Of a DNA stretch of 64,000 nt, positions 3,299-62,152 are shown piece by piece. This DNA comes from Microbacterium terrisoli (GTDB taxonomy: Bacteria > Actinomycetota > Actinomycetes > Actinomycetales > Microbacteriaceae). The translations under genes were made by a program, and so were the position numbers. The notes under the pieces are model-generated. The model was not told where the DNA came from. It ran no database searches and was given only the letters and a program-made list of their open reading frames with translations. The stretch is from NCBI RefSeq assembly GCF_030866805.1, contig NZ_CP133019.1, positions 1,054,001 through 1,118,000 of the forward strand, read 5' to 3'. Positions within the stretch are counted from its first letter, which is position 1; every line of letters begins with the position of its first letter.

Positions 3299-3316
3299 GC
3301 CGGTGAAGCGGGCGGC

Positions 3317-3377
3317 AGCAGGGGATTCTCGTCGAGACAGGGGACCTGGCCACGGGTCTCACCGAGAATCCCCTGCT
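3317..3377. terminator. long hairpin between convergent ahcY and RDD gene
   Basis: A perfect 15-bp inverted repeat, AGCAGGGGATTCTCG at 3317-3331 and its complement at 3363-3377, encloses a second short stem (GAGAC 3334-3338 with GTCTC 3356-3360). It sits between two converging stop codons and has no T-run on either side. Position and symmetry suggest a bidirectional terminator or mRNA 3'-end stabiliser. Confidence 0.6.
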
Positions 3378-3402
3378 TCGACGGCCGGCCGGTGCGCTGC
3401 GC

Positions 3403-4233: not shown

Positions 4234-4250
4234 GACCTACAGTGAACCAC

Positions 4251-5246: not shown

Positions 5247-5437
5247 CCGTGAGGCGGCGCACAGGTGACACCATGGCAGACTCCGGTCTTGACACAGGTT
5301 GCGCATAGGGCCACACTCAAGACCCAGTGGGCGTCTGGGGCTCACTTGCTGGTGGACGGACTCACCGCGCGGACATCTGGGGTTCGCTCGGGAATCATGG
5401 ATCCGGTTGCTGGCGCTGCGCTGGTGCGGAAGGTGTC
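5247..5437 (+). promoter_or_regulatory. leader region of the giant gene with a TTGACA box
   Basis: This 191-bp spacer between the SpoIIM-like gene and the giant gene contains a perfect TTGACA at 5289-5294. A weak -10 candidate, CACACT, lies 17 bases further at 5312-5317 and matches the consensus at only three positions. If used, the transcript would have an untranslated leader of roughly 110 bases. A ribosome binding site GGAAGG at 5428-5433 precedes the ATG at 5438. The -35 match is clear but the promoter as a whole is tentative. Confidence 0.35.
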
Positions 5438-5569
5438 ATGGTGCGCGGAAAATCGGGGATCGGTGAGTTGCGCCTGCGCAGCCACGGCCGCGGTCTTCGC
5501 CTGTGCGCCGTGATCGCGACCTTCTCGGTCATCGCGATGCCCGGAACACTTCCCGGCGCGGTCTTCGCC
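5438..5569 (+). other. Sec signal peptide of the giant protein
   Basis: Residues 1-44 have a long basic n-region (six Arg and one Lys in the first 21 residues) and a hydrophobic core LCAVIATFSVIAMPG. A small-residue cleavage site GAVFA|QPV ends at Ala44. No twin-arginine motif is present. It implies export through the SecA/SecYEG route; secA itself lies at 59333 in this window. Confidence 0.75.
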
Positions 5570-8500
5570 CAGCCGGTCTCGCACGCGCAGGCACTGCATG
5601 CGGTCGGCTCCTCACCCGCGTCATCCGCGTCGGCGTCACTCGATTCAGCCGACATCGCGCGGGTGCTGCCCGCGGCGCTGGCGATGTGGCCGGATTCTTC
5701 GAACGATCAGCGGATCCGTGACCTGAGCATTCAGATCGCGCCGCTCTCTGGCGATCTGCTGGCCATCACGCGCGGCGACACGATCACGGTCGACCCCGCC
5801 GCCGCCGGGCATGGCTGGTTCGCCGACCCCACGCCCTGGGCGTCTGAGGAATTCCGCGTGCAGGGCGGCATCGCACGTGCGCTCGCGACGGGACCGGCCG
5901 CCGGCCGCATGGACGTGCAGACCGTGCTCGCGCACGAGATCGGGCACGTGCTCGGTCGCGCAGATCTGAGCGACGGAGGCGACGCCGTCATGGAGGGCAC
6001 CCTCGCCACCGGTCGCCGCGTGCTCGGGGTCGGACGCGACGAGGGCGCGCAGCCGGCCGTGCAGCGCGCGCTGGCGGCGGGAACCGGGTTCGCGCTGCGA
6101 GCGATGGATGCCGCGGCGGACGCACCGACTGATCAGGTGTCTGCGGCCCCGGCCGATACGACGAGCGTCGATCCGACGACGACGGTCACGACGACCACCG
6201 CCGACAGCTCTGATCCCACCTCGGACCCGGCCGCGACGGATGCCACGGTGACGGACCCGGCCGCGACGGATGCCACGGCGACGGACCCGACGGTGACGGA
6301 CACCACGGTGACCGACACAGCCGCAACCGATCCGACCGCGCCGGATTCGACGGCGACGGATGCAGCCACGACGGGGAGCACATCCACCGACGCCACGGCG
6401 ACGGACACGACGGTGACGGATGCCACGGTGACGGACCCGACCACGACCGACGCGACCACGACCGACGCGACCACGACGGACGCCACGGTGACCGACCCGA
6501 CTGCGACGGTTGCGAACGCGGACGGCACACAGGCGTCTCCCGCCATCGCCGCGACGTCGACTGAGACGACGGTCCCGTCGGATTGGGAGTACGCCGCGGA
6601 CGCTGCCGCCGTCACCCAGGTGCGGGCCGGTGACGGGGTGCTCTCGGTCGGCGACCAGCAGCGCGCGCTGAACACCGTGACCTCGCTGCACATCTTCGGG
6701 ACGGATGCCGACGACACACTCGACATCGACTCCGGCGCACTCGCGGCCCTCGCCGGGCTCGTCGTGACCTACGACGGCGGTGCCGGCCACGACGCGCTGG
6801 TCGGGCCGAAGGCCGATGCGACCTGGACGGTCACCGGCACGGGTGAGGGCACGCTCGCCGCCGCCGGTGGGACCGTGGCATTCCGCGGGCTCGAGCTTCT
6901 GACCGGCGGCGTCGGCAACCACGACACATTCGTGCTCGACGCAGCCGGCACCATCGCCGCCGTCGACGGCGGCGCCGGCGGCTACGACACGCTCGTGGTG
7001 CGACACGGCACGTTCGCGCACGTCGCATCCACGGTCAGCGGTCCGCAGTCCGGCACCATCGTGCGCGATCAGTTCGTGACCGCATACGCCGGACTCGAGC
7101 CCATCAAGATCGAGAGCCCGACGGGCACCTATACGGTCTCTGCCGCCACCACCGGAAACCACACAGTGCGCATCCACAGCAACAACGCCACCGACGCGAC
7201 AGTGGACTTCACCGACGGCAGCGGCGAGTCCACGTCGATAACGATCACCAGTGCCGCGACCCTCAACGTCCTCGGCGGCGCCGGCGACGACAGCTTCGCA
7301 ATCGAGGCGCTGCCCTCACTGGTCACTCTGGTGGTCAGCGGCGGCGCCGGCAACGACACCTTCACGGTCGACAAGAGCTGGACCGGCGTGGTCACGATCG
7401 ACGGCGGCGCCGACGATGACACCATCATGGGACCGGATGTCGACACCGACTGGCTGATCACAGGCCTGAACAGCGGGTCGACCAGCACCATGTCGTTCAC
7501 GAACGTCGAGAACCTCACCGGCGGCACGGGTGTGGACGTGTTCACGCTCGGCACCGACACCACGGGCACCACCGTCGTCACCGGGCAGCTGAGCGGCACG
7601 ATCGACGGCGGCGCGACGCCGGTGGGCACGACGTCGCAGGACACGCTGACCGCTGCCGACATCGCAAACGAGTGGACGGTCGATGGTGCCGACAGCGGCA
7701 GCATCGGCACGGGGACCACGGTCACCTCCTTTCGCCGCATCGCGAACCTCGTCGGCGGATCGGCCGATGACACGTTCTCGATCCGTGCGGGCGGGTCGGT
7801 CAGCGGCACGATCTCGGGCGGCGCCGATGACGCCGACGCCGATATCCCGGCCGTCGACACCCTCACCTACGAACTGTTCGGCTCGCCGGTGACCTTCACC
7901 CTCACCAGTGGAGCGTTCGCCCTGAGCGACCTCTTCTCCGCTTCGACCGCGGCCGCCGACCCGGGCGCGGGTCGCGTGGCGATGAACGGCACCGACCCGA
8001 ACGCGGTCACCGAGCTGTTCCTGAGCACGGCCGACACGACCGGCGCGGATGCCACGGCATCCATCACGCGAGCCGAAGGCACCACCGGCGGCCAGATCCG
8101 ACTCTCCGGCACGAGCGACCCGTCATCGTGGCTGCTGTTCCGGCTGCTGGGGATGCTGGTCCCCGCCGGCGGCACGTATGCCATCGCGAATGTCGAGCTG
8201 ATCTCGGCCGGCTCCGGCGCCCCCTTCGTCGCCGGCGACACCGTCGTGGTGTCGTACCTGCCGCCCGCTCCCTTCGCCACCGCGGTCGGCGCGCTCGCCG
8301 ACATCGACGTGGTGACAGGCAGCGCATCCAGCGATACGATCCGCGGCCCCCCGGCCGATGTGGTGCAGTGGACAGTCGACGGCACGAACGAAGGCACCGT
8401 CGCCGGCGTCAGCTTCAGCTCCTTCGAAAACCTTCTCGGCTCGGCAGACAACGCCGATGTCTTCTCCGTCAGCAAAGGCGCGACGGTCTCGGGCATCATC

Positions 8501-11500
8501 GACGGCGGCTCTGGCGGAACCGACTCCCTGCTTCTGTTCACGAGCGACACCGATGCCGCCGTGTACAACGTGGCCGGCACCGACGTCGCCGGCACGACGC
8601 ACCTCGCGGGCACAGTCGCCGTCGCCTTCGCGGGCCTCGACCACCTCGACGTCATCAGCGGCAACGACAGCACCCGCTACATCTCGGGCACCGACTTCGC
8701 CGACACCATGACGTTCGCCTCCAACGGCGCAACCTCGATGAAGGTCACCCTGGCGCACGTCGCCTGGTACGACCCGGCCGCTGGTGTGATCACCTCGAGC
8801 CTCACGTTCGCCAACCCGCTCACCGCACTCGTGATCGAGGGTCGTGCAGGTGCCGACACGATCGTGATCCAGAGCCTGTCGCCGGGCTGGCACAGTGGCG
8901 CGAGCCTCTACGTGTACGGCAATCGCCGGCTCAGCGAGACCGTGCCGATCTTCGTGGACGACGACCTGGCCGACACCGTCTCGTTCACCGGCGACATCGA
9001 CACGAAAGACGGGACACTCGAGGCGTACGCGGCGCACATCTCCGTCGCCCCCGGCATCACGATCAACGCGGGCGAGGGATGGATCACCTTCCGCGCGCGC
9101 CAGATCGGCTTGGCCACCGTCGAGAACCTGTCGCCCGTGTACGTCACCGACCGCAACGTGTCGATCACGGTCGGCGCCGGTGCGGTCATCGCAGCGACCG
9201 GCATCTACCTGATCGCGCAGGCCGAAGACCGTTCTCTGTCGGAGTACCTGTCGGTGCCCAAAGAGGTCGCGAACTTCGTGATCGACCCGCTCACCGACAA
9301 GATCGGCTCTGCCCTGGCGCTGCCGGTCAAGGTGCTCGTGCGCAACTCGACGGCAACGATCACGATCGGCGACGGCGCGCACCTGGTGGGCGCCGACACG
9401 GTCGGGATCTACGCGACGGCCTCCGCCGATGCCGGCGGCACGGCGCACGGCAGCCTGTTCAGCGTCGGCTACGCGCAGGCCACAGCCACGGCGACCGTCA
9501 CGATCGGCACGAACGTGCTCATCACGAGCACCGCCGCGATCGTGATCACCAGCAGTGCCGAGGCCTCGGCATCCCTCAGCGCATCGACGTCGCGGTCGCT
9601 GGAGGGCATACGCACGCCGGGCGGCGCGCAGTTCGCCCTCTCCGTGGCCGTCAGCAACGCGGTGGCCACCTCGCACGTGACGGTCGGGCACGGCACGCGG
9701 ATCGAGGCTGACAAGACCGTCAATATCCAGGCCACCGGCGGCGTCGAGTCCGAAGCCGAAGCCGAAGCCGGCCTGTTCGCCGACGGCACGGCCGGGCTCG
9801 CATTCGGCATCCAGCTGTCGGATGCCGACATCAAGACGACCGTGGACGGCACGGTCATCGCGCACATGGTTCCCGGATCGATCGTGAAGATCGAGATCGA
9901 CCCGCTGAACACGACGCCTGACACCTACGGCTACGTCGACTATGCGAACAACCGCATCTGGGTCGGTGACATCGCTCTGGTCACCGAAGACACGATCACC
10001 TACACGAACCGGCGGGGCACCGACATCGGCGGTCTGGTCAACGGCCGCGAGTACTACCTCATCGTGTTCGGCGACGGATGGATCTACCTGGCACCCACCG
10101 AGCACGACGCGGTGATCGCAGGCCTCGGCGAAGATCACCTCGCCGGCCACGTCGTCGACCTCGTCAAGGGCAGCGGTGCCCTCGCGACGAAAGACAACAC
10201 ACGACCCTTCGCGGGCTCCGACGTCGACGGCGCGGACGACACCGTGACGCTGTCGTGGACCGGTGGCGTGTTCAACACGTTCGAGCTGGGCCAGGCGGTC
10301 GTCTACCACCAGGGCACGCAGGCGATCAGAGGGCTCGAAGACAAGCACACGTACTACATCATCGCCAGCACCGGGCAGAACAACCTGCAGGGTGACACGC
10401 GCTTCGCGACCGCTCAGGTCGTGGGACTCGCAGAAACCGAGAATGAAGCGCGCGCGGGTGTGGCCATCGACATCGGCGACGTGTCCGACGCGGCGACCGG
10501 ATACAGCTTCGCCGCCATGCACGTGCTGGACTCCGGGTTCGCGACCGGCGTGGGAATCGTCGCCGCGCTCGACGCGTCGGATTCGAGCTCGGCCTCGGGC
10601 GGGCTGGAGCCCGAGAACGACAACACCAACACGTGGTCGAAGTTCAAGGACGTCATCGGCACGAACGTCGGCGACAAGATCTTCGGGGCGCTCACGAAGT
10701 CGTACGCCCAGGAGCAGGCCAAAGCCGGCGTCCCATCGAACAGCGGTCTGGCCGTGGCCGGTTCGCTGGCGTTCACCTTCGCCCACCACGACGTGATCAC
10801 CGACGTCGTCGGCACCGCCCACATCTTCTCGGGTGAAGACCTCGAGATCCGCGCCACGATCGAGCAGTCGCTCACGCTGAACGCGGAAAGCAGCGTGGAG
10901 CCGCAGACCGATGCCACCGGCGCGAGCGGGGCCACCAGCGCCGAGACGATGATCAGCATCGCGGTGTCGGTGGGCGTCGTGGAGAACACCGCCAAGGCCA
11001 CCGTGCACACGGGGGCGACCCTGGACGGCACCCGGGCGACGCGTGTGATCTCGGATGTCTCCTACCCGTTCCTCACGCGTCTGGACCAGTACCTGCCGCT
11101 GTCGTGGGGCGCCTTCATCGACTCGCTGCGCAACGACGGCTACGGCGCGGTCACGAAGTACGTGGACACGACCCTCGGCGTGAAGGGCGCGTTCTTCAAC
11201 ACCTGGACGTCGGCCACCGCCGAGGCCGACGAGGTGGGCGTGGCCGGGTCGGTCACGGTGCTCGTGCTCACCAACGACTCCGAAGCGACCGTGCAGACCG
11301 GCGTCGCCATCAACGAAGACGCAGCGTGGCTCACCGGAGATGAGCAGACCGTGTCGGTCGAGGCCACCAATTACGCGCAGTTCATCGACATGGCCGGCAT
11401 CTTCTCGCTGCCCGACATCGACCTCGACTCCAAGAACACGAAGTTCAAGGACCGCATCTCGCTCTCGCCGGTGGGTGCGAACGGCGAGAAGGGCGGCGCC

Positions 11501-26500: not shown

Positions 26501-29500
26501 GTGCACGGCGGCGGCAACCAGTACGTCGACGGCGTGATCGGCGGCGACACGATCATCGTCACCGGCGGCGCCGGACCCGATTCGCCACTGGTGGTCTACG
26601 GCGACACGTCGCAGGACGGCGTCTGGTATTCAGGGGCGCCCGACCGGCAGGATGCGGGAGACTTCGGCTCGCAGCCCTACGACTCCTTCCCCGGCGTCGC
26701 CGACGAAGACGAGCACTTCCTGCTGCCGTTGGCCAGCCCCTACGCGCACGCCGGCAACGATGTGATCGACGCGAGCGCCCTGTTCCGGGATGCCGCAGCC
26801 GCCGCCCTGCCCACTGTCGGGCTGATCGCCTACGGCGGCGAGGGCGACGACACGATCATCGGAAGCCAGACCGGCGACTACCTCGCCGGCGGGTCCGGGA
26901 ACGACACGATCCAGGGGCAGCGCGGCCGCGATCAGATCTACGGCGACTCGGGCGTGAACGTGGACATCATCACCCGTGCGCTCACGATCGCGACCGTCAA
27001 CGCCAGCGCAGCCCCGAACGCCGACGGCCTGGCCACCGGCGATGACGTGCTGCACGGCGAGGGAACAGGCAGCGCCGTTGCGGCATCCACCGCCGACGAC
27101 GTCGACATCGTCTTCGGCGACCACGGCGTCGTCACGCAGGACGTCGCCGACGCCCGCACCGACCTCACCGGCCCGCCGGTGTTCGTGCGCCTGCAGACGA
27201 CTGTGCGGGTGACCTCGATGCACACCGTCCGACCCGCCGACGGCGGCGCCGACGTCATCACCGGCGACATCGGCGACGATTGGATCTTCGGCGGCAACGG
27301 CACCGACACCATCGCAGGCTCCGACGGCCTCGACACCATCCTGGGCGATAACGGCTCCATCGTGCTGGTGCGCCCCGACGGGCTGATGCGTCTGGTGACC
27401 ACGACCGACCCGACTGCGGGTGCCGCCGACGTCATCACCGGCGACGCGGGCAACGACCTGATCTTCGGCGGCACCGGGTCCGACACCGTGGCAGGCTCCG
27501 CCGGCAAGGACCTGGTGTTCGGCGACCACGGCCAGGTCGCCGCGACCGTCGCCTACCAGGGCGGCATCGGCATCCGGCTCGACCTGCTGCCGGTGAACCT
27601 GCCGGTGGCCCAGCACCCGTTCGTGTGGACCTCGATCGACACCGGGGCAGCCGAGGGCGGCGCGGCCGATCTGCTGCGCGGCAACGCCGGCGACGACATC
27701 GTCATCGGCGGGCAGGGCGCCGACCGCATCACCGGCGGCGACGGCGCCGACGACCTCATCGGCGGACACAACGTCGCCGGCGGCAGCGACACCGGGGACT
27801 TCATCGACGGCGGTGCCGGAGACGACGCGATCGCCGGCGACAACGCCGACCTGCTGCGCACCGGCGGCATCGCGAGCCTGCGCTTCCAGACGCTGACGGC
27901 GACCACGATCTTCGTGACCGACACCGGGTGCCCGAACATCGCGGCATCCGGCCCGTGCGGCGCGGCGCCCACCACCGGGTACGACGACCCGCGCGGTGCG
28001 CCCGCTCGCACCGTGCAGCTGTTCGACCACGACACGTCCACCGTGCCCGGGGTGTACGGCGATGACGTCATCGCCGGCGGCGCCGAAGATGACGTGATCT
28101 TCGGTCAGCTCGGCGACGACTGGATCCAGGGCGACGGGTCGGTCATCGACGACGAGGGCGCCACAACGATCGACATCCGCGTCACGCGCCGTTCGGTCGA
28201 GGACTGGGCAGGTGCCCGGCGCGACGGCGACGACTACATCGAAGGCAACGGCGGCGACGACGTGATCTTCGGCGGCCTGGGCCGCGACGACCTGGTCGGC
28301 GGCAGCTCCGACATGTTCAGCCTCACCACGCCCGAGCGTCGTCCGGACGGCTCCGACACGATCTTCGGCGGCGCCGGCACCCGCCTTGAGCGCAGCAACC
28401 TCGGCGACCTCAGCGCGAACGGCCACGCGCACGACAGCGACGTGATCCTCGGCGACAACGGTGACATCTTCCGGCTCGTCGTGCAGGGCCCTGCCGTGCT
28501 CGACGCGATGACACCGTCCACGACGTTCCTGCGGTTCGCGTACGACACCTACAGCGGCACCGATCGGCTGCTGCCGCGTGCCTACGCACTGCTGGACTAC
28601 ACGCCGGGATCGCCCGTCGGCATCGGCGCGGCCGACCTCGTGCACGGCGAGAGCGGCGACGACACCATCCACGGGCAGCTCGGCGACGACGTGCTGTTCG
28701 GCGAGGGCCAGGACGACGACCTGTACGGCGAATGGGGCAACGACCGCCTGTACGGCGGCAGCGGCTCTGACGGCATGCTCGGCGACGACGGCGTCATGCG
28801 CACGAGCCGCAACGGCATCGCCGAACCGCTGTACGGACTGACCACGGCCGACCAGCAGTCGTACGCGTCGATCCCCGGCCCGTTCACCGGCGCCGACCTG
28901 TACGTGAGCGGCCGCATCTTCAAGCGCGTCGACCTGACCACCTGGATCGACGGCGCCGTCGGCAACAACGACACCATGTACGGCGGACTCGGCGACGACT
29001 TCATGCACGGCGGCGAGGGCAGCGACGCCATGAGCGGTGCCGAGGCGCTGCGCGTCTTCTACAACGCCGATCTGCTGCGCGGCGCTCTGACCCGCCTGGC
29101 CACCGAGCTGCCTGTCGTCGACACCGACCCGCTGCACTATGACCCGACCACCACGAAGTTCGCCGACTACGACGCCGACGACCCCTGGGCGAAGATCCCC
29201 GGCTTCCTGCTCAACTTCGACGCGTACGTCGTCGACGAGCGCACCGGGCTGCCGATCATGGTCGACGGGCAGACGGTGAAGAGCCACGACGGCCGCGACA
29301 TGATGTTCGGCGACCTGTGGCACGACTGGCTCGTCGGCGGCACTGACTGCGACTGGCTGTTCGGGGGCTGGGGCGATGACCTGCTGCAACTCGACGACAA
29401 CCTCGAGACCGCGGGCGGAGCCAACACGGACCCCGAGAACGACGACCCGCGCTTCCGCGACGGCGACTTCGCCTACGGCGGCGCCGGGCGCGACGTGCTC

Positions 29501-32500
29501 ATCGCCAACACGGCGCAGGACCGCATGTTCGACTGGTCGGGCGAGTTCAACAGCTTCGTGGTGCCGTTCAGCCCGTTCGGCACCCCGACCGTCAACCGCA
29601 CGTTCAGCCCGCACGCCCGCGACTTCATCCGGGCGCTGGGCGACGCCGCCGGCGCCGACACCGGGCCCGCGATCCCCGCCGGCGAGCCGTTCGACGAGAT
29701 CGCACTGGTCGAACCTGACGACGCGGCCTGGGGCGACCAGCACGGCGGACCGCGTGACCCGCAGCCGGGCAACATCCCCGGCGGCGGTCGCGACGACGTC
29801 GGCGGCCCGCACCTCGGGTGCGGCTGCGACGGCACGGGCCTCGGCGGCACACCCACCGTCAACGTCGTCAAGTACGTCAACGGCGACGACGCGAACCAGA
29901 CCGGCCCGGCGCTGGCCATCGGCGCCCCCGTCACCTGGACGTACGAAGTGAGCGTCGTGGGCGCGGCATCCGCGCAGCTGACCGGCATCCACGATGACAA
30001 CGGCACCGCGGGCGCCACCGGCGACGACTTCGACCCGGAATATGTCACCGGCGACACGAACGGCGACGGCTGGATCGACCCGGGCGAACTGTGGCTGTTC
30101 CGCGCCGCCGGAATCGTCCAGGCCGGCCGCTACCTGAACACCGTCACCGTCACCGCGCTCGGTGCCGACGGCACAGCCGTGGGCGACACCGATACGGCCA
30201 CCTACACCGGCGTGGATGTCGATGGGGCGGCGGTGCACGTCGAAACCGCCGTGAACGCGGCCGACCCGTGGCATCCGACCGTTGCCGAAGACGCCGACCA
30301 GCCCACCGGTCCGCAGCTGACCGTGGGCAAGACCGTCGTGTTCACGTATCTGGTGAGCGCTGCGGGAGCCACGCCGATCTCCGGGGTCGTCGTCACCGAC
30401 GACAACGGCACCCCCGGTCTGGCATCCGATGACTTCACGGCCGTGTTCATCGGCGGCGACACCGACGCCGACGGCCTGCTCGAGACAGGCGAGATCTGGC
30501 TGTTCCGCGCCGAGCGCGTCGTGCGCGAAGGGCAGTACACGGCGCGCGGATCGGTCGCCGGCACCGCCGGCGGCGTCGACCTCGACGATGCGGACCCGGT
30601 CAACTACCAGGGAGCGCCGGCCGGCGTGCTGGTCGTGAAGAAGGCCGTGAACGCGGCATCGCCCCTCTCTCCCACGACCGCCGACGAGGCCGACACGGCA
30701 GCAGCGGCGAAGCTGATCGCCGCCGGCGCCGCAGTCGTGTGGACCTACCGGGTGTGGAGCACAGGCGGGGCGCTGCGCGATGTCGCCGTCACCGATGACA
30801 ACGGTTCGCCGGACTTCTCGGATGACGACTTCGACCCCGTGTACGTGTCGGGCGACACGAACGGCGACGGTGTGCTGGATCCCGGCGAGGTCTGGCTGTA
30901 CACCTCGCTGGGCGTGATCGCATTCCCCGCCGAGCGGGGACTGTTCGGCAACACGGTCGGAGCCACCGCGCGCACCGAAGCCGGCGACGCGGTGCAGGCG
31001 TCGGACGCCGCTTACGGATTCGGCACGGTGATCACACCCCACGTCAGCAAGACCGTGAACGGTGTGGCCGCGCCCGCGGCGCCCGGGCCGACCGTTCCCG
31101 CCGGAATGACGCTGATCTGGCGTTACCAGGTGACCAACACCGGCAACATCGGCGGCGTCGTCGCTCTGTGGGACGACAACGGCACGCCGGGCGACGTCAG
31201 TGACGACTTCGGGCCCGTCTACGTCTCGGGCGACACCGACGGCGACGGCCTGCTCGACCCCGGCGAGACGTGGCTGTACACGGCACAGGGAGTCGCTCCG
31301 CTGGGCGCCTACGCCAACGTCGCCACCGCCACTGTCACACTGGCAGCGACCGGGCAGAGCGGAACGGCCACCGCCATCGCGCACGTGTTCGGCATCGCGG
31401 TGCCGCCCACCGGTCTCACCGTCGACAAGCGCGCGAACGGCGTCGCCGGCACGACCCTGCAGGTCAAGGCCGGCTCGACCGTCGCCTGGACGGTCGCGGT
31501 CCGCCTGATCGACGGCTCGCTGCCGCTGCAGGGCACGATCGTGATCGACGACCTCGGCACGGCCGACACCGGCGATGACGTCGTGCTGAGCCTGACCGGG
31601 GGAGACACGGACGGCGACGGGGTGCTCGACCCCGGCGAGACGTGGCTGTTCTCGTATTCGCTGCCCGCCGCAGCGGGGCTCGTGTGCAACACTGCCGCCG
31701 CCGGGGCGCACGACCAGTACGGCCGCGCGTTCGTCGCGCAGGACTCGGCGTGCGTGTTCGGCTCTGCCCCCGGCATCCGCATCAAGAAGGCCGTGAACGC
31801 AGCCGACCCGTGGCACCCGACGGGCATCGACGACGCCGACGGTGCCGGAAAGCAGTTCCTGACCGGCACGCGCATGGTCTACACGTACCTGGTGACCAAC
31901 ACCGGCAACGTCGCGCTGACCCTCGGAGCGTTCGCCGACGACAACGGCACAGCGTCCGATGCATCCGACGACTTCACGCCCCGGTACGTCGGCGGCGACA
32001 CGGACGGCGACGGCCTGCTGGATGTCGGTGAGATCTGGCTGTTCACCTCGGACGGGGTGATCACCCGCATCGCACGCACCGCCGGGGTCACCAACGTCGT
32101 GCGGATCACCGCCACCGCGACCGACCCCGCGCTGAGCGTGTCGTCCTCCGATTCCGCAACCTACCGCGTGTCGGCGACCGCCGAAGGGCTCACACCCGGC
32201 TTCTGGAAGAACAACGCCCTGTCGTGGGATGCCGCAGCCTGGCCGCGAAACCCCGATGGCACGCTCGTCTACCGCCCCGATCAGACCGTCGGCAGCGTGT
32301 TCGGTGCGGCGACCGGAGCAGTGGCGTCGATGACCCTGCTGGATGCGCTGAGCGCCGGCGGCGGGGGAGTGAACGCGATGCTGCGCGCGGCGGTGGCGGC
32401 CCTGCTCGGGTCCGCCCACCCGGACGTGGCCTACCCGCTGACCGTCGCGGGTCTGATCGACGCAGTGAACGCCGCGCTGGCCGACGGCGGCAAGAAGACG

Positions 32501-32944
32501 ATGTCGTCGCTGCAGGCCGTGCTCGACTACGACAACAACCGCGAAGCCGACGTCGACCAGCACGGCATCGCGACGGGTGCGGTGACGACGACCACGACGG
32601 CGACCGGGGTGACGACGACCGGGGCGTCGGAAGTCGGAGCGTCGGGTGGCGATTCGGCCGAGGCGACGGTGCCGGCAGGGTCGACCGCATTGTCGAGTGC
32701 AGCATTCGCCTGGGCTCCGTCCGACGCGACGGTCGCGTATGTCGGAGGACAGCGTGACGGGGCCGATTCGGCATCCGCAGGTGCGGCCGACAGCGGCGAT
32801 TCGACCGCCGTGACCGATTCGACGGTCGTGATCGCCTCGGGCGGGGACCTCGGCCTGCCGCCCGCCGGCTCCTCGAGCCTTGCGTTGCGCCTCCTCGCGC
32901 TGCTGGTGGGCGCGGATCCGAACGATCTCGTCCTCGCGGGCTGA
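5438..32944 (+). CDS. giant secreted repeat protein (about 9,168 residues), RTX/adhesin type
   Basis: One uninterrupted reading frame of 27.5 kb encodes a protein of very roughly 0.9 MDa, rich in Gly, Ala, Asp, Thr and Val. The frame is open from 5327, but the ATG at 5438 is preferred because GGAAGG precedes it and a Sec signal peptide follows at once. Modules in residue order: signal peptide 1-44; matrixin-like domain about 71-200; Thr/Asp-rich linker 236-361; GGxGxDT/ENLTGG repeats 381-1075; LktA-like beta repeats about 1300-5090, interrupted by TYYV modules; further beta repeats to about 6370; Calx-beta-like modules 6371-6851; RTX nonapeptides 7100-8040; six DxDxDG modules 8138-8911; TPGFWKN domain 8916-9041; Ser/Thr-rich tail. 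The mosaic is known from giant adhesins, mostly of Gram-negative bacteria and Planctomycetes. A calcium-stabilised surface or matrix protein is the best inference. No type I secretion, two-partner or sortase gene is nearby. Confidence 0.85.
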   Translation: MVRGKSGIGELRLRSHGRGLRLCAVIATFSVIAMPGTLPGAVFAQPVSHAQALHAVGSSPASSASASLDSADIARVLPAALAMWPDSSNDQRIRDLSIQIAPLSGDLLAITRGDTITVDPAAAGHGWFADPTPWASEEFRVQGGIARALATGPAAGRMDVQTVLAHEIGHVLGRADLSDGGDAVMEGTLATGRRVLGVGRDEGAQPAVQRALAAGTGFALRAMDAAADAPTDQVSAAPADTTSVDPTTTVTTTTADSSDPTSDPAATDATVTDPAATDATATDPTVTDTTVTDTAATDPTAPDSTATDAATTGSTSTDATATDTTVTDATVTDPTTTDATTTDATTTDATVTDPTATVANADGTQASPAIAATSTETTVPSDWEYAADAAAVTQVRAGDGVLSVGDQQRALNTVTSLHIFGTDADDTLDIDSGALAALAGLVVTYDGGAGHDALVGPKADATWTVTGTGEGTLAAAGGTVAFRGLELLTGGVGNHDTFVLDAAGTIAAVDGGAGGYDTLVVRHGTFAHVASTVSGPQSGTIVRDQFVTAYAGLEPIKIESPTGTYTVSAATTGNHTVRIHSNNATDATVDFTDGSGESTSITITSAATLNVLGGAGDDSFAIEALPSLVTLVVSGGAGNDTFTVDKSWTGVVTIDGGADDDTIMGPDVDTDWLITGLNSGSTSTMSFTNVENLTGGTGVDVFTLGTDTTGTTVVTGQLSGTIDGGATPVGTTSQDTLTAADIANEWTVDGADSGSIGTGTTVTSFRRIANLVGGSADDTFSIRAGGSVSGTISGGADDADADIPAVDTLTYELFGSPVTFTLTSGAFALSDLFSASTAAADPGAGRVAMNGTDPNAVTELFLSTADTTGADATASITRAEGTTGGQIRLSGTSDPSSWLLFRLLGMLVPAGGTYAIANVELISAGSGAPFVAGDTVVVSYLPPAPFATAVGALADIDVVTGSASSDTIRGPPADVVQWTVDGTNEGTVAGVSFSSFENLLGSADNADVFSVSKGATVSGIIDGGSGGTDSLLLFTSDTDAAVYNVAGTDVAGTTHLAGTVAVAFAGLDHLDVISGNDSTRYISGTDFADTMTFASNGATSMKVTLAHVAWYDPAAGVITSSLTFANPLTALVIEGRAGADTIVIQSLSPGWHSGASLYVYGNRRLSETVPIFVDDDLADTVSFTGDIDTKDGTLEAYAAHISVAPGITINAGEGWITFRARQIGLATVENLSPVYVTDRNVSITVGAGAVIAATGIYLIAQAEDRSLSEYLSVPKEVANFVIDPLTDKIGSALALPVKVLVRNSTATITIGDGAHLVGADTVGIYATASADAGGTAHGSLFSVGYAQATATATVTIGTNVLITSTAAIVITSSAEASASLSASTSRSLEGIRTPGGAQFALSVAVSNAVATSHVTVGHGTRIEADKTVNIQATGGVESEAEAEAGLFADGTAGLAFGIQLSDADIKTTVDGTVIAHMVPGSIVKIEIDPLNTTPDTYGYVDYANNRIWVGDIALVTEDTITYTNRRGTDIGGLVNGREYYLIVFGDGWIYLAPTEHDAVIAGLGEDHLAGHVVDLVKGSGALATKDNTRPFAGSDVDGADDTVTLSWTGGVFNTFELGQAVVYHQGTQAIRGLEDKHTYYIIASTGQNNLQGDTRFATAQVVGLAETENEARAGVAIDIGDVSDAATGYSFAAMHVLDSGFATGVGIVAALDASDSSSASGGLEPENDNTNTWSKFKDVIGTNVGDKIFGALTKSYAQEQAKAGVPSNSGLAVAGSLAFTFAHHDVITDVVGTAHIFSGEDLEIRATIEQSLTLNAESSVEPQTDATGASGATSAETMISIAVSVGVVENTAKATVHTGATLDGTRATRVISDVSYPFLTRLDQYLPLSWGAFIDSLRNDGYGAVTKYVDTTLGVKGAFFNTWTSATAEADEVGVAGSVTVLVLTNDSEATVQTGVAINEDAAWLTGDEQTVSVEATNYAQFIDMAGIFSLPDIDLDSKNTKFKDRISLSPVGANGEKGGAGGSFYIFVQHNTTHATVEDGAYVYSGADGGFNMKAEEALLHVVLVQSGTTGGKFAVAGAVAYIGQTSDTIARLGAKATVRGRDVRIYAGDLMTQVTWVGGITKGEGVGVGISVAINDLDRTTKAVIGAVDATSTATGTAWVPTVDSGISVSGAVDLLAKIDGDLWAFSVAGSASAPGETPPAPPANTPNKALAVLGNEVKTPPTGVAVAGAASVNIVSDTVQASIADAGRIDAGSITVTARDDLFQLSVTGGAAFTVGQRSGSKSLAGAFSFNDIDATVEAFIVTTDAVTTGDLTVVAERSGDLVTISAGLAGAAGNDSLSVAGSFSANVIVGGTRATVRGMTGAIGGSVRVAASDSSRIIAIGGGIAFGGKAGVGLGVGVNLLGTTGEALDVHATIAGSRLTIGGSSLKVTADAVNPATGQRIYALGAGIGAAVGPKTDIGLGFMMSINIIHGSTIAQIVSTSITDQPGGSALNTTVHAKDDSGIVAISGAVGVSSSTAIGAAIGYNEISGDIHATLDDVDLVADGSLTIEAIADQEIGGVAVGVAVSIGSQGKLAGAGSLLIDIIDQDVAATILDDVADSPIGASVISVAGPVKLSATDTSLIVAIGGGISVAVRGAAVGAAISYNLITNSLHAGIDSASVDARTGNLTIEAISKATLAAVAVGVAVSGGNAAIGGSVAVNSIANGVDAHIRNSTNVHAAGTVTVTATESATLISVGGGVGVSLRGTAIGGSFAYNYIGGGFDAANPDVVHRDSSSTDQISAVIENAAVTAGADIVVTAGYQPPTGPLPTTVQIAGVDADSPGVSIDIPGDPSTEANKPFAALIVSVAIGGAVADNIAVGAAVAINVVAHTITAHISGSRPVSAGGSILVSAADDLTAVAVAGGAAVGQNGAGIAVPLQIDLSTVTAYIGAGTTVDAQGAGTGVTARTGTKTGSTPDTQKVIGIAVAATSFETVRTIAIGLAGGARFGVAGSGSVTVMDRTVKAYIGDGAKINQGTTGESTAQSVLVRASDRLDHIGIAGSAALGGIAGIGAGVEVGVITRHTQAWIGAGAKVQARGDIRVLATSAETVVSVAGGIAAGIDAGIAGAVDVYVMDVTTTAEIRGTDSDAASPTVVLAEGSVQVAAADALTVDFVAGNVAVGGDAGIGGAVAVPVITKTVTARIGTRAVVDARGLRPGIDIPAGLTVSYGAYSDDPSQVAPPAITASDVGYDSSTQSADQNPLTDPQLTQRRTVAPVLRTGFTGVAVTALNSDDIGLYGIGVSGSGTASVQISAAVHVLNATVLATIDADAKVNATAGTEGSTQSVLVAADNDYQLLAVAGGAAVSGVVAATPGASVAVVTDTVTARIADDAQVQASADIAVSAHTTHEILVIAIAIAGSGEVAIAGAAGVLVLDDTTHAFVGDGAVVRAGGNVVVAASSDSDVDVLAIGAGIGIGAAGIGAGVGVTVITKDTRAWIGDASVDATGGSAAFVVVNDGTLGDDGAFGATDSGDDVHGVIVSAASSEDILSVGIAGAGGLGAGIAGAVTVEVLDADTRAYIAGGALINTLTTGAAHQDVRVVATDDVHVLAIAGAIAGGIVGLAGGVDVGVVHNDTTAFIAGHDVRAVRDVAVGAAANRKISSYAISAAGGAVGLGAAVSVWSLAGNLVSTYTYRDQEAGNQSSNALNGKDDDGNATSTISSLDDQLGKIGASNTLGTIASPHSDGEEVGDTQNSADIRDAASRTKNTLDENSPEGSVAAGTSATAVSTTMGSQTVPAGTTAFIGRSAAVTAGGDIDVTAREHLEITMIGGGLGVGGVGVGAGVAILTASDAVTAFVGYGATLRAGGTVSVIAVRHADLSVLGVTAGIGLAGGAAANVVVITDSAAVAAYLEDGPSAGKGVTILAAGAVEISAESIARIHTLAVVAAGGMLAGLGVAVLVLTLEGTSSAAIGMYATVGTDTATRTVGDVTVSATGTASISNFGDSAVTIVAIAGGTVAISAGVLAAVIGEAGAVRTSASIKRGAKVFSSGAVRVTVDQEGTITVSGGAGGLGFVAAGGLGVSSAVHGEGAASVAEGVTVRAASVTVSAKDTSAVTGEITVIGLGAIGVSGARVDSDIDASASAEVGSTSGAVTTLDASGAISLLATSSQTATADARGGSGGVGAVAWLVADATVTGSTTARIIGRTAIANALGVDVTAEALSARTYGHVVVGSGGGVSIGGSQAFATTAPQVTAGIGDDVTIGSAPSGSATADPIDGGVSVHASAAPEADSVANAYGGGAVQVGIPEAVSTIVPELDAHIGVSASNTVIYAKGSVSVAADLTDEAGEPLSDKISGISIDEDTLTFTYPGIGEGATLRYIGSREISGLHSGSEYTVLDTDTVGTIRLGSLFDAAAVDPLQETITFGSPHGFESGDCVVYDVRGGISILGSSATAGCGGSGTSTFFVRVIDGTTIKLTTTHDAAVASSDATDAVTVSDGVLTNGTIAAEPSGTAVIYRAPAAGTFSAGAVNVTPVQITDPQDDTKKIWAPKTTTADDGTVSITHDSSLHNIFVGTDLAAKLHDGDAVLYLQRGSTAITGLTSGHTYYVIKGENGIIQLATDLCQATGCDDTDITAIAITTSGDESALFSLERSLAGLRDGQTYYTITGGSLGTGQFQLATTPGGTAIAVSDANRPGPHLFGIVEVDLNVGTGTQALYANLTGTFPDDGGDVEYFTAAGGTPLAVAVPAGGDGVSGATVNGGSGGGVDVSVPTAAVNGSRTVDGVTHNATVTATMTVDTVNAQADVTVTANGALAATAYANAAGGGVVEVGEAHADVNLRSVTVAATISADSHIRAGRDVTVSAHSDHSVSATAQSKGGGVISAKIAETTARLTGSTTAAVGAGADVHAGRDILISADSALFGKTVADTASWGVGAGADSDNTNDDRGVRLTMATTVTIAAGVQLIGATVTLLAQLSKLDASARAIALGVNPILLGVATAYANADVNIDSDVTVTVGTDNGAQTIVRGEHGVDIRAITDDVHITRDAERLAVALIPPQAAHAGGTDDFANTVTTADPALIIAGARAAGGPLTTPAGADHVALYVQAENLGIHVDNDPPRDSDRYRDSDDSHQKRSGAIAWSADVLILGGQDGAPLLVVDANGRIAAVNAVTVNAAVAHVGDQVDPDGDGAYTVGPITNSGYGNVVFASNCTGCAIRNAADTDGAQPVFEFRDTLASVTIVDYSGKAATITGIDVAYRGQDTPLIVLRSVPAGVTVTFDLRHSVAPSIVDIEKRGDATLTIAGTIVNPIGLTRVVNLFRQILAGTAGLIVTNLLDIQATDATDGSIGAPGARLRVDLVRYTATPRVDAPSASGPRDPRIVAQAAVDVFLSLRGLERTQTGAVGMTIPIDLIRAGGDIDLEVRTAQRQDGTSTTADVRVQVPNEIIPGTWVQPKVVHRHFRPDSGVASTLDGAVYPSATGATDIDSVYVFAQRNAVLERTEIPVGTTGLAQYDTAVRDGELVLFASTALPGGTPGLLAGDHISVRDTESLARGMDAVDVGTPTTISLQGFIDLADDGTGWLDADVDGSIDLTETSGDLRLGLVRSRTSDVTLTADDSILDADPADHLVAVDPRDVEGVNITLIATHGTIGTEADFLEINLLDTVGVAATPVHGILNATAALGVYLRETVGDLRLGLVTSGRSAGVTDVSLSTAAGSILDGAGDGAGDAAADVVADRIDMRAWGGGIGSLAHDVDIDSAGTTGSGRLYTAADGSVFITETDGDLSVLTARSDTGDVRLTIPDLNGVRGPPNTGTQNLILLTDGVSLVTQDQPRHTTPGAADTVTTTRTGIWAQRDISLWVGDDVLAPVNSDIVAGRTIYIHGDTNRGPGGGTALDPDPLGAPVDENADTATSPTTAAGDFGTTMTFAGRLGGVFDLGGSSDRTDGALIFGHIDLDHFLFTGTQLGTAVHVYGSQNLSATDRTACAPTVLQLGCGDGEDQFLVRDLHTPDLPASNTLTLDGQQGTDHYRVETTADATRTYTVNLLDSGAPADGADEATVVGTAGDDVFLLRRTTCIAGEQADRPAFVALVHGTVDGLRASPATGTGVERIAYDTALNGRLAVLAGAGDDTFAVDDTSTAITLDGGAGADTFQIGQLFGTPRDAAAGLSPDDVFPRLMPTTRGYLSPGTGAPLVALGGTGDDRFTVYANQATVRLEGEDGNDQFVVRAFALAKTNADGTIRLDADGVAIPDIGSSTAAALDIRSGGGDDEVRYVMNAPVSIDGGTGYDKLIVLGTEFPDDIVITADGIFGAGATVTYRTVESVEIDGLEGSDQFFVQSTQGGVAYRVIGGLGSDSINVAGDISTDIAVRDIEGASGAVNHLVSSADPDYDGIIAGGIDLHVAGVNEGLVVITESGGTTAVTEGGGAAAFDTYTVRLSKAPTGAVYVTVSAAGSDAAESAAGGDTIWLCTGTAAQCADAFADYRRHVIDDGEPKVEPQRAVVLTFDADTWNIAQTVHVYAVDDALPEGDRVVAIGHTVIARDADDRAAGFDGAVVRDVAVLVRDSDTPGVNVVEIDPATDAEDGTNLVLEGVHGFTDDVLVSLASPPSGAVKIRADVPDGRLVITSADGRYDAATRTITFAAGDTASVRLTIGVTDDTVRQDPAWLRLVLTRVSGPVGYVFDARTLYVDVRDDDSPGVIVQQSGGETTVISGGQGDDYTIRLTHKPTADVVVAIEPDGLVDAVLGGRVALRAVGASGRGLYTGTVTIDSTSRRITRADGGSFLADGFEEGQLISFDGGATVYKIAVIRGTNATKDDVLELTATGALSSLSGAYTIRRYAAAVTFTPDDWYLPVTVELVADTAFALPAVRQGVKTFAVQPHLLSQLVGPLSVEGGVTGADRSLHTGIKLPGETDGLLPGIAAQPPENRQIDILNIFDDSSMQDQNRVLTSTSLTGTGLPQGYTVGGATAFGEPATVPGGISFGRISVTAGADGTVTGISTDAALSTIEVLNILFGQGNDRLLITGTLNAAPEDDGDPTTDPNPPAAHGVLTVVHGGGNQYVDGVIGGDTIIVTGGAGPDSPLVVYGDTSQDGVWYSGAPDRQDAGDFGSQPYDSFPGVADEDEHFLLPLASPYAHAGNDVIDASALFRDAAAAALPTVGLIAYGGEGDDTIIGSQTGDYLAGGSGNDTIQGQRGRDQIYGDSGVNVDIITRALTIATVNASAAPNADGLATGDDVLHGEGTGSAVAASTADDVDIVFGDHGVVTQDVADARTDLTGPPVFVRLQTTVRVTSMHTVRPADGGADVITGDIGDDWIFGGNGTDTIAGSDGLDTILGDNGSIVLVRPDGLMRLVTTTDPTAGAADVITGDAGNDLIFGGTGSDTVAGSAGKDLVFGDHGQVAATVAYQGGIGIRLDLLPVNLPVAQHPFVWTSIDTGAAEGGAADLLRGNAGDDIVIGGQGADRITGGDGADDLIGGHNVAGGSDTGDFIDGGAGDDAIAGDNADLLRTGGIASLRFQTLTATTIFVTDTGCPNIAASGPCGAAPTTGYDDPRGAPARTVQLFDHDTSTVPGVYGDDVIAGGAEDDVIFGQLGDDWIQGDGSVIDDEGATTIDIRVTRRSVEDWAGARRDGDDYIEGNGGDDVIFGGLGRDDLVGGSSDMFSLTTPERRPDGSDTIFGGAGTRLERSNLGDLSANGHAHDSDVILGDNGDIFRLVVQGPAVLDAMTPSTTFLRFAYDTYSGTDRLLPRAYALLDYTPGSPVGIGAADLVHGESGDDTIHGQLGDDVLFGEGQDDDLYGEWGNDRLYGGSGSDGMLGDDGVMRTSRNGIAEPLYGLTTADQQSYASIPGPFTGADLYVSGRIFKRVDLTTWIDGAVGNNDTMYGGLGDDFMHGGEGSDAMSGAEALRVFYNADLLRGALTRLATELPVVDTDPLHYDPTTTKFADYDADDPWAKIPGFLLNFDAYVVDERTGLPIMVDGQTVKSHDGRDMMFGDLWHDWLVGGTDCDWLFGGWGDDLLQLDDNLETAGGANTDPENDDPRFRDGDFAYGGAGRDVLIANTAQDRMFDWSGEFNSFVVPFSPFGTPTVNRTFSPHARDFIRALGDAAGADTGPAIPAGEPFDEIALVEPDDAAWGDQHGGPRDPQPGNIPGGGRDDVGGPHLGCGCDGTGLGGTPTVNVVKYVNGDDANQTGPALAIGAPVTWTYEVSVVGAASAQLTGIHDDNGTAGATGDDFDPEYVTGDTNGDGWIDPGELWLFRAAGIVQAGRYLNTVTVTALGADGTAVGDTDTATYTGVDVDGAAVHVETAVNAADPWHPTVAEDADQPTGPQLTVGKTVVFTYLVSAAGATPISGVVVTDDNGTPGLASDDFTAVFIGGDTDADGLLETGEIWLFRAERVVREGQYTARGSVAGTAGGVDLDDADPVNYQGAPAGVLVVKKAVNAASPLSPTTADEADTAAAAKLIAAGAAVVWTYRVWSTGGALRDVAVTDDNGSPDFSDDDFDPVYVSGDTNGDGVLDPGEVWLYTSLGVIAFPAERGLFGNTVGATARTEAGDAVQASDAAYGFGTVITPHVSKTVNGVAAPAAPGPTVPAGMTLIWRYQVTNTGNIGGVVALWDDNGTPGDVSDDFGPVYVSGDTDGDGLLDPGETWLYTAQGVAPLGAYANVATATVTLAATGQSGTATAIAHVFGIAVPPTGLTVDKRANGVAGTTLQVKAGSTVAWTVAVRLIDGSLPLQGTIVIDDLGTADTGDDVVLSLTGGDTDGDGVLDPGETWLFSYSLPAAAGLVCNTAAAGAHDQYGRAFVAQDSACVFGSAPGIRIKKAVNAADPWHPTGIDDADGAGKQFLTGTRMVYTYLVTNTGNVALTLGAFADDNGTASDASDDFTPRYVGGDTDGDGLLDVGEIWLFTSDGVITRIARTAGVTNVVRITATATDPALSVSSSDSATYRVSATAEGLTPGFWKNNALSWDAAAWPRNPDGTLVYRPDQTVGSVFGAATGAVASMTLLDALSAGGGGVNAMLRAAVAALLGSAHPDVAYPLTVAGLIDAVNAALADGGKKTMSSLQAVLDYDNNREADVDQHGIATGAVTTTTTATGVTTTGASEVGASGGDSAEATVPAGSTALSSAAFAWAPSDATVAYVGGQRDGADSASAGAADSGDSTAVTDSTVVIASGGDLGLPPAGSSSLALRLLALLVGADPNDLVLAG
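5648..6040 (+). other. matrixin-like zinc protease domain in the giant protein
   Basis: Residues about 71-200. The segment HGWFADPTPW followed by VLAHEIGHVLGRAD (His166, Glu167, His170, Asp176) matches the metzincin-type pattern HExxHxxGxxD found near the N-terminus of several giant repeat proteins. It is preceded by a beta-strand-rich stretch (IAPLSGDLLAITRGDTITVD). All three presumed zinc ligands and the catalytic Glu are present, so activity is possible, for example in self-processing. This is inferred from the motif only. Confidence 0.6.
6145..6520 (+). repeat. Thr/Asp-rich low-complexity linker with in-frame tandem DNA repeats
   Basis: Residues about 236-361 consist almost only of Thr, Asp, Ala, Val and Pro in a degenerate TDATVTDP pattern. 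In DNA this appears as variants of gcgacggatgccacggtgac. The clearest exact tandem is a 15-bp unit at 6439-6453, 6454-6468 and 6469-6483; the third copy differs by one base. All units are multiples of three, so copy changes would keep the frame. It separates the protease-like domain from the repeat body. Confidence 0.85.
6580..8660 (+). repeat. GGxGxDT / ENLTGG beta-repeat region of the giant protein
   Basis: Residues about 381-1075 hold some six to eight degenerate repeats of roughly 70-100 residues. The recurring pattern is W-V-G-x-GT, then FxxIENLxGGSxDDTF, then GGAGxDTL. Examples are WTVTGTGEGTLAAAGGTV, VENLTGGTGVDVF and IANLVGGSADDTF. Similar units occur in giant surface proteins of Proteobacteria and Planctomycetes. 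The Asp-Gly turns could bind calcium as in RTX rolls but are less regular. Confidence 0.7.
8830..9240 (+). other. conserved ITFRARxIG module of the giant protein
   Basis: Residues about 1131-1268 contain LEAYAAHISVAPGITINAG, GWITFRARQIGLATVENL and AGAVIAATGIYLIAQAEDRS. I recognise this run as a conserved transition segment in other giant repeat proteins, between GGxGxD repeats and the long beta-repeat array. Its function is unknown. Confidence 0.5.
9966..10440 (+). repeat. TYYV-type module cluster 1 (two copies) in the giant protein
   Basis: Two copies of a roughly 60-75-residue module with the core GLxxxxxYYxI, then an Ile/Leu-x-Leu-Ala strand. The copies show GLVNGREYYLIVFGDGWIYL and GLEDKHTYYIIASTGQNN. 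They interrupt the beta-repeat array and are followed by a less repetitive stretch around GALTKSYAQEQAKAG. Function unknown; the repeating core is visible directly in the sequence. Confidence 0.6.
18450..19440 (+). repeat. TYYV-type module cluster 2 (four copies) in the giant protein
   Basis: Four further copies of the module seen at 9966-10440. The cores read SGLHSGSEYTVLDTD, GFESGDCVVYDVRGGISI, GLTSGHTYYVIKGENGIIQL and GLRDGQTYYTITGGSLGTG. The first cysteines of the mature protein occur here, in DCVVYD, AGCGGS and LCQATGC. Recurrence of the module in two distant places suggests duplication of a defined domain. Confidence 0.6.
20980..22770 (+). other. mixed beta region with three SGDLRLGLV repeats in the giant protein
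   Basis: Residues about 5182-5778. The first part contains a two-Cys loop NCTGC and a conserved stretch DLRHSVAPSIVDIEKRGDA followed by NPIGLTRVVNLF, which recalls a module of other giant repeat proteins. From 22090 three related repeats of about 80 residues appear, with cores ETSGDLRLGLVRSRTSDVTL, ETVGDLRLGLVTSG and ETDGDLSVLTARSDTGDVRL. Each is followed by a SILD-like or Ile-Pro-Asp turn. Confidence 0.5.
24550..25990 (+). repeat. three Calx-beta-like modules in the giant protein
   Basis: Residues about 6371-6851 carry three beta-sandwich-like modules. They share the order glycine-rich strand, YTVRLSKAPTGAVYVTV-type strand, a LTFDADTWNIAQTV-type strand and a terminal acidic turn (RDSDTPGVNV, RDDDSPGVIV). 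This order is typical of Calx-beta domains, which bind calcium in sodium/calcium exchangers and surface adhesins. The first module also has a Cys pair (LCTGTAAQC). Confidence 0.55.
26735..29560 (+). repeat. RTX-type calcium-binding nonapeptide region of the giant protein
   Basis: Residues about 7100-8041 contain some 25-30 glycine/aspartate nonapeptides of the GGxGxDxux type in short runs. Examples are GGEGDDTI, GGNGTDTIAGSDGLDTILG, GGQGADRITGGDGADDLIGG and GQLGDDVLFGEGQDDDLYG. Such parallel beta-rolls fold on binding calcium outside the cell. The runs are separated by longer spacers, a layout common in giant adhesins. In Gram-negative bacteria this usually goes with type I secretion; here a Sec signal is present instead. 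Confidence 0.88.
29850..32170 (+). repeat. six DUF7507/DUF11-like modules, each with a DxDxDG calcium loop
   Basis: Residues about 8138-8911 form six tandem modules of 120-130 residues. Most open with a KxVNG or KAVNAADPWHPT motif, followed by a Val-rich strand (VTWTYEVSVVG-type). Five contain a DDNGT turn; the fifth has IDDLGTADTGDD instead. Each carries an EF-hand or dockerin-like loop: GDTNGDGWIDPGELWLF near 30050, GDTDADGLLETGEIWLF near 30454, GDTNGDGVLDPGEVWLY near 30851, GDTDGDGLLDPGETWLY near 31231, GDTDGDGVLDPGETWLF near 31600 and GDTDGDGLLDVGEIWLF near 31994. They look like cell-surface stalk domains with one calcium site each. Confidence 0.8.
32185..32944 (+). other. TPGFWKN domain and C-terminal tail of the giant protein
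   Basis: TPGFWKNNALSWD (residues about 8916-8928) opens a domain seen at the C-terminus of several DUF11-type surface proteins. After residue 9041 the chain is Ser/Thr/Ala/Asp-rich and disordered-looking, with a TTTTTATGV-like stretch. The last 30 residues read LPPAG (32855-32869), then SSSLALRLLALLVGA, then DPNDLVLAG. This resembles a sortase signal in order (LPxxG, hydrophobic segment), but Ala replaces Thr, the hydrophobic part is short and contains Arg, and no basic tail follows. Anchoring is therefore uncertain. Confidence 0.55.
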
Positions 32945-33018: not shown

Positions 33019-33459
33019 ATGCACGCGCACACCGCCGGGACCGAAGACGCCGGGACGGTCATCCGTGCTGCGGGACTGCGCCTGACCGATCCGCGGGCTG
33101 CCGTGCTGGACGCGCTGCGCGACCACCCGCACGCCAGCGCCGACCAGGTTCTCGCCGAGGTCGCGCCGAAGCTGCAGCATCCGAGCGTGCAGTCCGTGTA
33201 CAACGCGCTCAATGATTTCGTGGCCGCGGGGCTCGCCCGCCGCATCGAGCCGGCCGGGCATCCGCAGCTGTTCGAACTGCGGGTCGGCGACAATCACCAC
33301 CATCTCGTGTGCACCACGTGCGGCAGCGTGCGCGATGTCGACTGCGTCGTCGGCGAAGCGCCGTGTCTGACGCCGTCCGACCCGCGCGGCTTCCTGATCG
33401 ACGAGGCCGAAGTCACGTTCTGGGGCACGTGCGCCGCGTGCGCCGCCGGCGTCGCCTGA
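33019..33459 (+). CDS. furA: Fur-family regulator (FurA/PerR/CatR type)
   Basis: A 146-residue transcriptional repressor of the ferric-uptake family, most likely peroxide-sensing because it is followed directly by katG. An N-terminal winged helix ([20 protein letters not shown], then VYNALNDF as recognition helix) precedes the dimerisation domain. The latter has the His-rich regulatory metal site GDNHHHLVC. Two CxxC pairs (CTTCG and CAAC) probably form a structural zinc site. The spacer to katG is 73 bp, so both are probably cotranscribed from the palindrome at 32980-33002. In relatives FurA represses katG and leaves DNA upon metal-catalysed oxidation. Confidence 0.88.

Positions 33460-59332: not shown

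Positions 59333-62152
<2,820 letters not shown>

Follow-up and report, generated by a model that had tools for sequence, protein, structure and literature searches.

Fibrillar adhesin-like proteins of the Firmicutes and Actinobacteria are long, secreted proteins with a repeat stalk; the fibrillar adhesin training set has a mean length of 1,196 residues, and because anchors are recorded in 846 of its 1,666 proteins, an anchor does not define the class (PMC9210967, in the sections covered here). Several extracellular giants per Gram-positive genome, with parts predicted to be beta-solenoids, are described for Apilactobacillus kunkeei, in which Giant1 to Giant5 (3,000 to 8,000 residues) are encoded by five consecutive genes (PMC12863079, likewise in part), and RTX-like proteins without a Sec signal occur in roseobacter exoproteomes (PMC5489592, in part), these not being shown to belong to the family treated below. 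The covered sections of these three reports and of PMC11573180 contain no description of giants of the type encoded by the gene studied here, a 27.5-kb gene of Microbacterium terrisoli (RefSeq assembly GCF_030866805.1, contig NZ_CP133019.1) located within a stretch of 64,000 nucleotides (positions 1,054,001 to 1,118,000), which is termed the window and in whose own numbering the features of Table 1 are given.

The product of this gene resembles each of these systems in part. A repeat stalk is combined with a secretion signal (the latter judged by hydropathy), as in fibrillar adhesins, but no adhesive domain or anchor is recognised, while the likeness to Giant1 to Giant5 is one of description. 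The LktA_tand_53 repeat model (NF012206) is matched at 242 bits, yet the array represents approximately a fifth of the protein, the remainder being composed of other modules. The nonapeptide repeats of RTX proteins of type I secretion are also present, but the type I HlyD model found no match in the genome at an E value of 0.001 (the same loose search produced matches in 13 of 14 control genomes, above the cut-off in one). Furthermore, a collinear body, signature and RTX segments, and a metzincin domain are shared with plasmid-encoded alphaproteobacterial giants which begin with an LEPRxLL motif, here termed LEPR-XLL giants (e.g., of Ensifer adhaerens plasmid NZ_CP118611.1, 9,023 residues, and Pseudosulfitobacter WP_114295156.1, 12,918 residues). 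We consider it probable, though by no means certain, that the gene specifies a Sec-exported, calcium-folded extracellular fibre, acting as an adhesin or scaffold, which belongs to a multicopy actinobacterial family.

The giant gene was confirmed to be real and unbroken. It forms a single open frame of 9,168 residues with no internal stop, where approximately 175 stops would be expected over 9,168 codons from base composition alone (~70% G+C), and its G+C content per codon position (0.67/0.53/0.91) resembles that of neighboring genes, in agreement with the intact, stop-free frame reported in the first-pass annotation of this DNA. The predicted product has a computed mass of 917 kDa and an isoelectric point of 4.18. 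Antisense frames of up to 2,106 residues are present in the region, and as the five longest peak in G+C at the first codon position (the reverse pattern), these are shadows of the giant's coding strand. The source genome comprises one contig of 3.63 Mb (completeness, 100%; contamination, 0.54%). Although an alternative in-frame GTG at position 5327 would extend the product to 9,205 residues, the ATG at position 5438 is preferred because of the GGAAGG sequence which precedes it and the promoter-like pair further upstream (Table 1), the signal peptide, promoter and ribosome-binding site all being judged from pattern and hydropathy.

A genus-wide search identified the family signature module in 27 of 366 genomes (own included) and yielded four near full-length orthologues (G163, G277a, G316b, and G232b), covering 8,664 to 9,015 of the 9,168 residues at a mean identity of 55 to 59%, while a fifth (G154b) covers 6,628 residues at 48% identity. 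Against three of these (G163, G277a, and G316b), the proportion of nonsynonymous differences (pN) was 0.26 to 0.28 and that of synonymous differences (pS) was 0.43 to 0.45, a level at which some saturation applies and for which only giants were compared. The pN/pS ratio was 0.47 to 0.84 in every 1,000-residue stretch, with the top value in the short last stretch. These ratios support purifying selection on the frame, the first-pass annotation having offered either selection or a very recent origin. One of four other giant pairs (G274-G286) displayed stretches with pN/pS values of 1.00 and 1.15, indicating that parts of some giants evolve fast.

The modular order which had been read from the letters alone was largely retained upon domain analysis (Table 1), the Sec-type signal peptide, TPGFWKN module, LktA-like array, RTX repeats and EF-hand-like modules all being recovered. 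The LktA_tand_53 model returned a whole-protein score of 242.1 bits (cut-off, 50) over 20 stretches, the best single repeat scoring 46.9 bits and none alone exceeding the cut-off, and a model trained on the family itself found 21 units, 20 of them within residues 1,933 to 3,868. A structure model of 355 residues of the array (predicted local distance difference test score, 75.5; predicted template modeling score, 0.71) contains two strands of ~20 residues per repeat. The RTX model PF00353 scored 91.9 bits (cut-off, 23) over nine stretches, whereas the six EF-hand-like loops were found by pattern, the Pfam EF-hand model reaching only an E value of 0.036; DUF7507 (cut-off, 27) scored 20.3 in the long piece and 33.2 when a short piece was scanned. 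The assignment of Calx-beta modules was not supported for this copy, as PF03160 gave no Pfam match in the scanned pieces and the region in question was modeled solely as Ig-like folds, although PF03160 was matched in all three orthologue tails scanned (of five orthologues).

Table 1. Modules of the giant protein and associated features, as positions in the window.
Feature	Position	Strand	Evidence
Giant gene, 9,168 aa, 917 kDa	5438..32944	+	Translation, codon-position composition
Sec-type signal peptide, aa 1-44 (AVFA/QP cleavage)	5438..5569	+	By eye; hydropathy 2.11 over 15 residues
Metzincin-like domain, HEIGHVLGRAD at 5933-5965, then invariant Met	5633..6037	+	Alignment, profile, Pfam
Thr/Asp/Ala/Pro-rich low-complexity linker	6137..6514	+	
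Beta-rich segment, GGxGxD motifs; similar in parts to near-N-terminal stretches of alphaproteobacterial giants	6593..8887	+	
LktA-type repeat array, 20 of 21 units found, ~52 aa each, gaps between some units	11234..17041	+	NF012206, family-trained model, structure model
Conserved body segment, collinear with other giants	18059..23716	+	
Two modeled Ig-like beta-sandwich domains	25037..25933	+	Structure models; Pfam negative
Family signature module (KLPGExD, QxPExxQID); middle without confident fold	25835..26407	+	
RTX nonapeptide-repeat region	26564..29497	+	Pfam PF00353
DUF7507-type segment with six GDxDGDGxLDxGE-like EF-hand-like loops	29825..32182	+	Pfam, pattern
TPGFWKN module	32192..32572	+	
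Tail, ~120 residues, no similarity to orthologues (these end in Calx-beta or a look-alike)	32573..32941	+	
Shine-Dalgarno-like GGAAGG	5428..5433	+	Read by eye, ahead of ATG 5438
Promoter-like pair TTGACA-N17-CACACT	5289..5317	+	Consensus match only
SpoIIM gene, left flank of giant	4242..5246	+	
Fur gene, right flank of giant	33019..33459	+	
katG, beyond Fur	33533-35803		

The window giant is not a lone case among Actinomycetota, for which the first-pass annotation had no characterised example with all of these modules to name. The same genome encodes two additional giants, with lengths of 10,933 and 12,189 residues (at 779946-812747 and 1698504-1735073, respectively), the latter ending in a basic GKRKK tail and harboring no LktA repeat by the family-trained model. 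Beyond the genus, the signature was found in five of 347 genomes sampled from the order and two of 396 sampled from the phylum (own included each time), and the LktA model alone matched six of 98 relatives, again including the source genome. A named collection, searched with two strict peptide patterns and thus yielding an undercount which cannot show absence from other phyla, contained 21 loci, all assigned to Actinomycetota by title: Microbacterium (11), Arthrobacter (4), Humibacillus (2), and single loci in Sinomonas, Agromyces, Pseudarthrobacter, and Salsipaludibacter. The collection comprised 41 main frames, between 1,954 and 12,530 residues in length, representing all signature places in the genus except two G158 pieces, together with the LktA-model places of G018, G028, and G049. 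LktA repeats were detected by the family-trained model in 35 of these, the remainder being G000c, G179, G232c, G277b, G371, and the truncated G329. The body of the family is conserved, its genes occupy different chromosomal sites singly, and its ends vary between Calx-beta, concanavalin-A-like, and Ig-like modules, an LAxTG tail, and a second metzincin; in Pfam scans of other giants' tails, Calx-beta, Big_13, and M10 scored above cut-off, the concanavalin-A-like family 3keto-disac_hyd was at or just below it, and the LAxTG tail had no match. A more distant actinobacterium (G790:C45) encodes three giant frames of 7,448, 11,695, and 13,159 residues on one contig.

Comparison of the flanking regions shows that the 27.5-kb gene changed place alone. 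The SpoIIM and Fur genes which flank it are spaced by no more than ~1.1 kb in 24 of the 29 other genus loci read, SpoIIM not being seen in the piece of the other five (the sample being 30 loci, own included, of 94 matching genomes among 99). Of the five orthologue-bearing genomes, four have SpoIIM and Fur matches separated by 88 to 131 bp, and no SpoIIM is present in the piece read from the fifth. The five orthologues are instead located between MurJ-side genes and a cca-type nucleotidyltransferase gene (gene names assigned by eye), a site which is closed in the window's genome, where ~72 bp separate the methyltransferase and nucleotidyltransferase matches. The gene therefore occupies one site or the other. 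No tRNA gene was found in the window, no integrase among the ten neighbor frames scanned, and no repeat above shuffled controls between the two flanks of the giant gene. In G163, ~115 bp of the promoter-leader region is repeated directly downstream of the giant. Elsewhere in the window, the C-terminal part of a 1,253-residue frame (52439-56200) gives matches to cupredoxin and multicopper oxidase.

Relatives of the window protein are also encoded on alphaproteobacterial plasmids. The central 1,333 residues matched 13 plasmid records, seven of which, six alphaproteobacterial and one from Rhodococcus, reach a coverage of 80% or more, and the alphaproteobacterial proteins are 8,148 to 12,918 residues in length and lack a Sec-type signal. 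The giants of Ensifer and Sinorhizobium are collinear with window residues 2,573 to 8,119 and 2,965 to 8,119, respectively, at 30 to 46% identity, and that of Pseudosulfitobacter with residues 5,302 to 8,119 at 33 to 45%, so that, as to the body, the resemblance to Gram-negative giants noted in the first-pass annotation is borne out. The N-terminal metzincin of the window protein, however, aligns with the C-termini of these three. Their start is of the LEPRxLL type, with MEPRVLL in Pontibrevibacter, IEPRILL in Thalassospira, and no such motif in Alisedimentitalea as annotated; the Ensifer N-terminus matched NF012209 at 34.9 bits (cut-off, 17), whereas neither the window protein nor any other actinobacterial frame in the collection, some of these being truncated, contains the pattern LEPR.[LF]L. 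Conversely, a hydropathy of at least 1.8 over 15 residues within the first 140 was reached by 28 of 33 giants (8 of the 41 frames, being truncated or broken, were left out; window value, 2.11) and by none of six alphaproteobacterial relatives (highest, 1.39), thereby separating most of the two sets; the five giants below this value scored 1.79, 1.67, 1.62, 1.62, and 0.33, although the start of the lowest-scoring one is doubtful.

The two groups also differ in their neighboring genes. The Ensifer and Pseudosulfitobacter giants are adjoined by genes for an HlyD adaptor, an M50 protein, and a SecA relative of 658 or 674 residues, which matches the motor and preprotein domains of SecA but not its wing-and-scaffold domain; the Ensifer M50 protein, the only one scanned, has an HlyD part. 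Close homologues of all three partners follow the Sinorhizobium giant, HlyD, peptidase M50, and SecA genes are annotated in Alisedimentitalea, and Pontibrevibacter has an adaptor, a relative of the M50 protein, and, at the position of SecA, a "DEAD/DEAH box helicase". For Rhodobacteraceae M382, M50 and SecA are taken from annotation under an M50 match. These genes, for which no description was found in the literature searched, are candidates for a dedicated export apparatus of LEPR-XLL giants. A strict partner rule is contradicted by Thalassospira, whose smaller LEPR-XLL protein adjoins HlyD and TolC genes with no annotated SecA-like gene, and by a Leisingera match without any such partner genes.

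Such export neighbors were not found beside the actinobacterial giants. Of five partner proteins searched against all fetched actinobacterial giant regions, the SecA-like query alone matched, and solely to the full-length SecA gene of the window (59333-62152; TIGR00963, 1,102 bits; cut-off, 800), whose position 26 kb downstream of the giant is probably a coincidence. No homologue of the HlyD or M50 partner was detected in the window's own genome, and across 12 Microbacterium genomes with giants a single weak match was obtained with HlyD (E value, 3.6e-4; G232) and a single partial match with M50 (3.6e-11; G049). On the plasmid of Rhodococcus antarcticus, too, no exporter gene is annotated in the vicinity of the two hypothetical frames. 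More tentatively, and with a confidence somewhat short of even, we propose that the same megadalton extracellular body came to use two different export routes in different phyla: a so far undescribed truncated-SecA/HlyD/M50-HlyD apparatus in Alphaproteobacteria, and in Actinomycetota a Sec signal which replaced the lost apparatus, the gene there being a single-gene mobile module that moves between core-gene sites while its C-terminal tip varies.

The nature of the N-terminal domain bears on whether the protein might rather be a giant secreted protease, the fibre serving mainly as a carrier which keeps the metzincin at some distance, or acting in the processing of itself or of other surface proteins. 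HExGH is present in 18 of 40 giant frames (the G070 fragment being left out), and in an alignment of all 18 the motif, the next Leu-Gly, and the downstream Met (Met-turn) are invariant. Their profile matched karilysin and vertebrate matrix metalloproteinases in the PDB (best E value, 5.4e-7), and each of the 18 matched Pfam M10 at an E value of up to 1 (best, 1.1e-8). Two giants (G217b and G120a) carry a second HExGH near the C-terminus, in one case at the M10 cut-off (24.3 versus 24). The matrixin-like protease of the first-pass annotation is thus upheld as a metzincin-like domain with HExGH and Met but not as a matrixin sensu stricto, since the window copy scored 20.2 against PF00413 (cut-off, 24) and its motif, HEIGHVLGRAD from residue 166, departs from the matrixin zinc site HExxHxxGxxH in having Asp at the third ligand place. 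This substitution is shared by six members (the window's group), the other 12 having His. Snapalysins use Asp as third ligand, and a loss of zinc therefore does not follow; nevertheless, the Asp, the absence of HExGH from 22 of the 40 frames (some N-terminally truncated), and the small share of the domain (~1.5% of the protein) render a primarily proteolytic role unlikely.

A released matrix or biofilm scaffold, as opposed to a cell-bound adhesin, is a more serious alternative, albeit one whose likelihood we place below even. It is favored by the lack of a recognised cell-wall anchor in the window protein, as judged from Pfam scans and examination of the tail, and by the restriction of an LAxTG-like motif, followed by a membrane segment and basic residues, to the ends of three of the 41 frames. 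Non-covalent retention is possible, however, and the genome harbors one sortase gene. It is because the window copy, unlike those three giants of the genus, has no such tail that a surface location and adhesion are only proposed here, the latter from the architecture and the ends of relatives. That the gene is an artefact of assembly or annotation, or a silent relic, is very improbable: some family members are indeed broken or truncated (the G018 and G070 frames and the G158 pieces), but the source genome is a single contig, 37 of the 41 frames span 8,422 to 12,530 residues in many independent genomes (some being truncated where a contig or stretch ends), and pN/pS remains below 1 in every stretch against the three orthologues, the partial saturation of pS notwithstanding.

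Under the favored reading of an exported fibre, the housekeeping Sec pathway would export the 0.92-MDa protein by means of its N-terminal signal peptide, and the secreted chain may then fold extracellularly with calcium into a long, beta-rich fibre. The LktA-type array would represent the stiff part of this fibre, accompanied by the Ig-like modules; calcium would lock the RTX repeats and EF-hand-like loops, and the metzincin-like domain, possibly proteolytic, would be carried at the N-terminal end. The probable role of the fibre is that of a fibrillar adhesin or a matrix scaffold.

The three giants together occupy approximately 2.7% of the genome (96.9 of 3,625.5 kb), a cost which speaks for a genuine function in a cell lacking an outer membrane. 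The closed alternative sites provide an example of a 27.5-kb gene which relocated alone. Moreover, the occurrence of related bodies with and without export neighbors offers a direct comparison of how a megadalton beta-rich protein exits Gram-negative and Gram-positive cells, a comparison which could tell whether it is calcium folding or a SecA-type motor that pulls.
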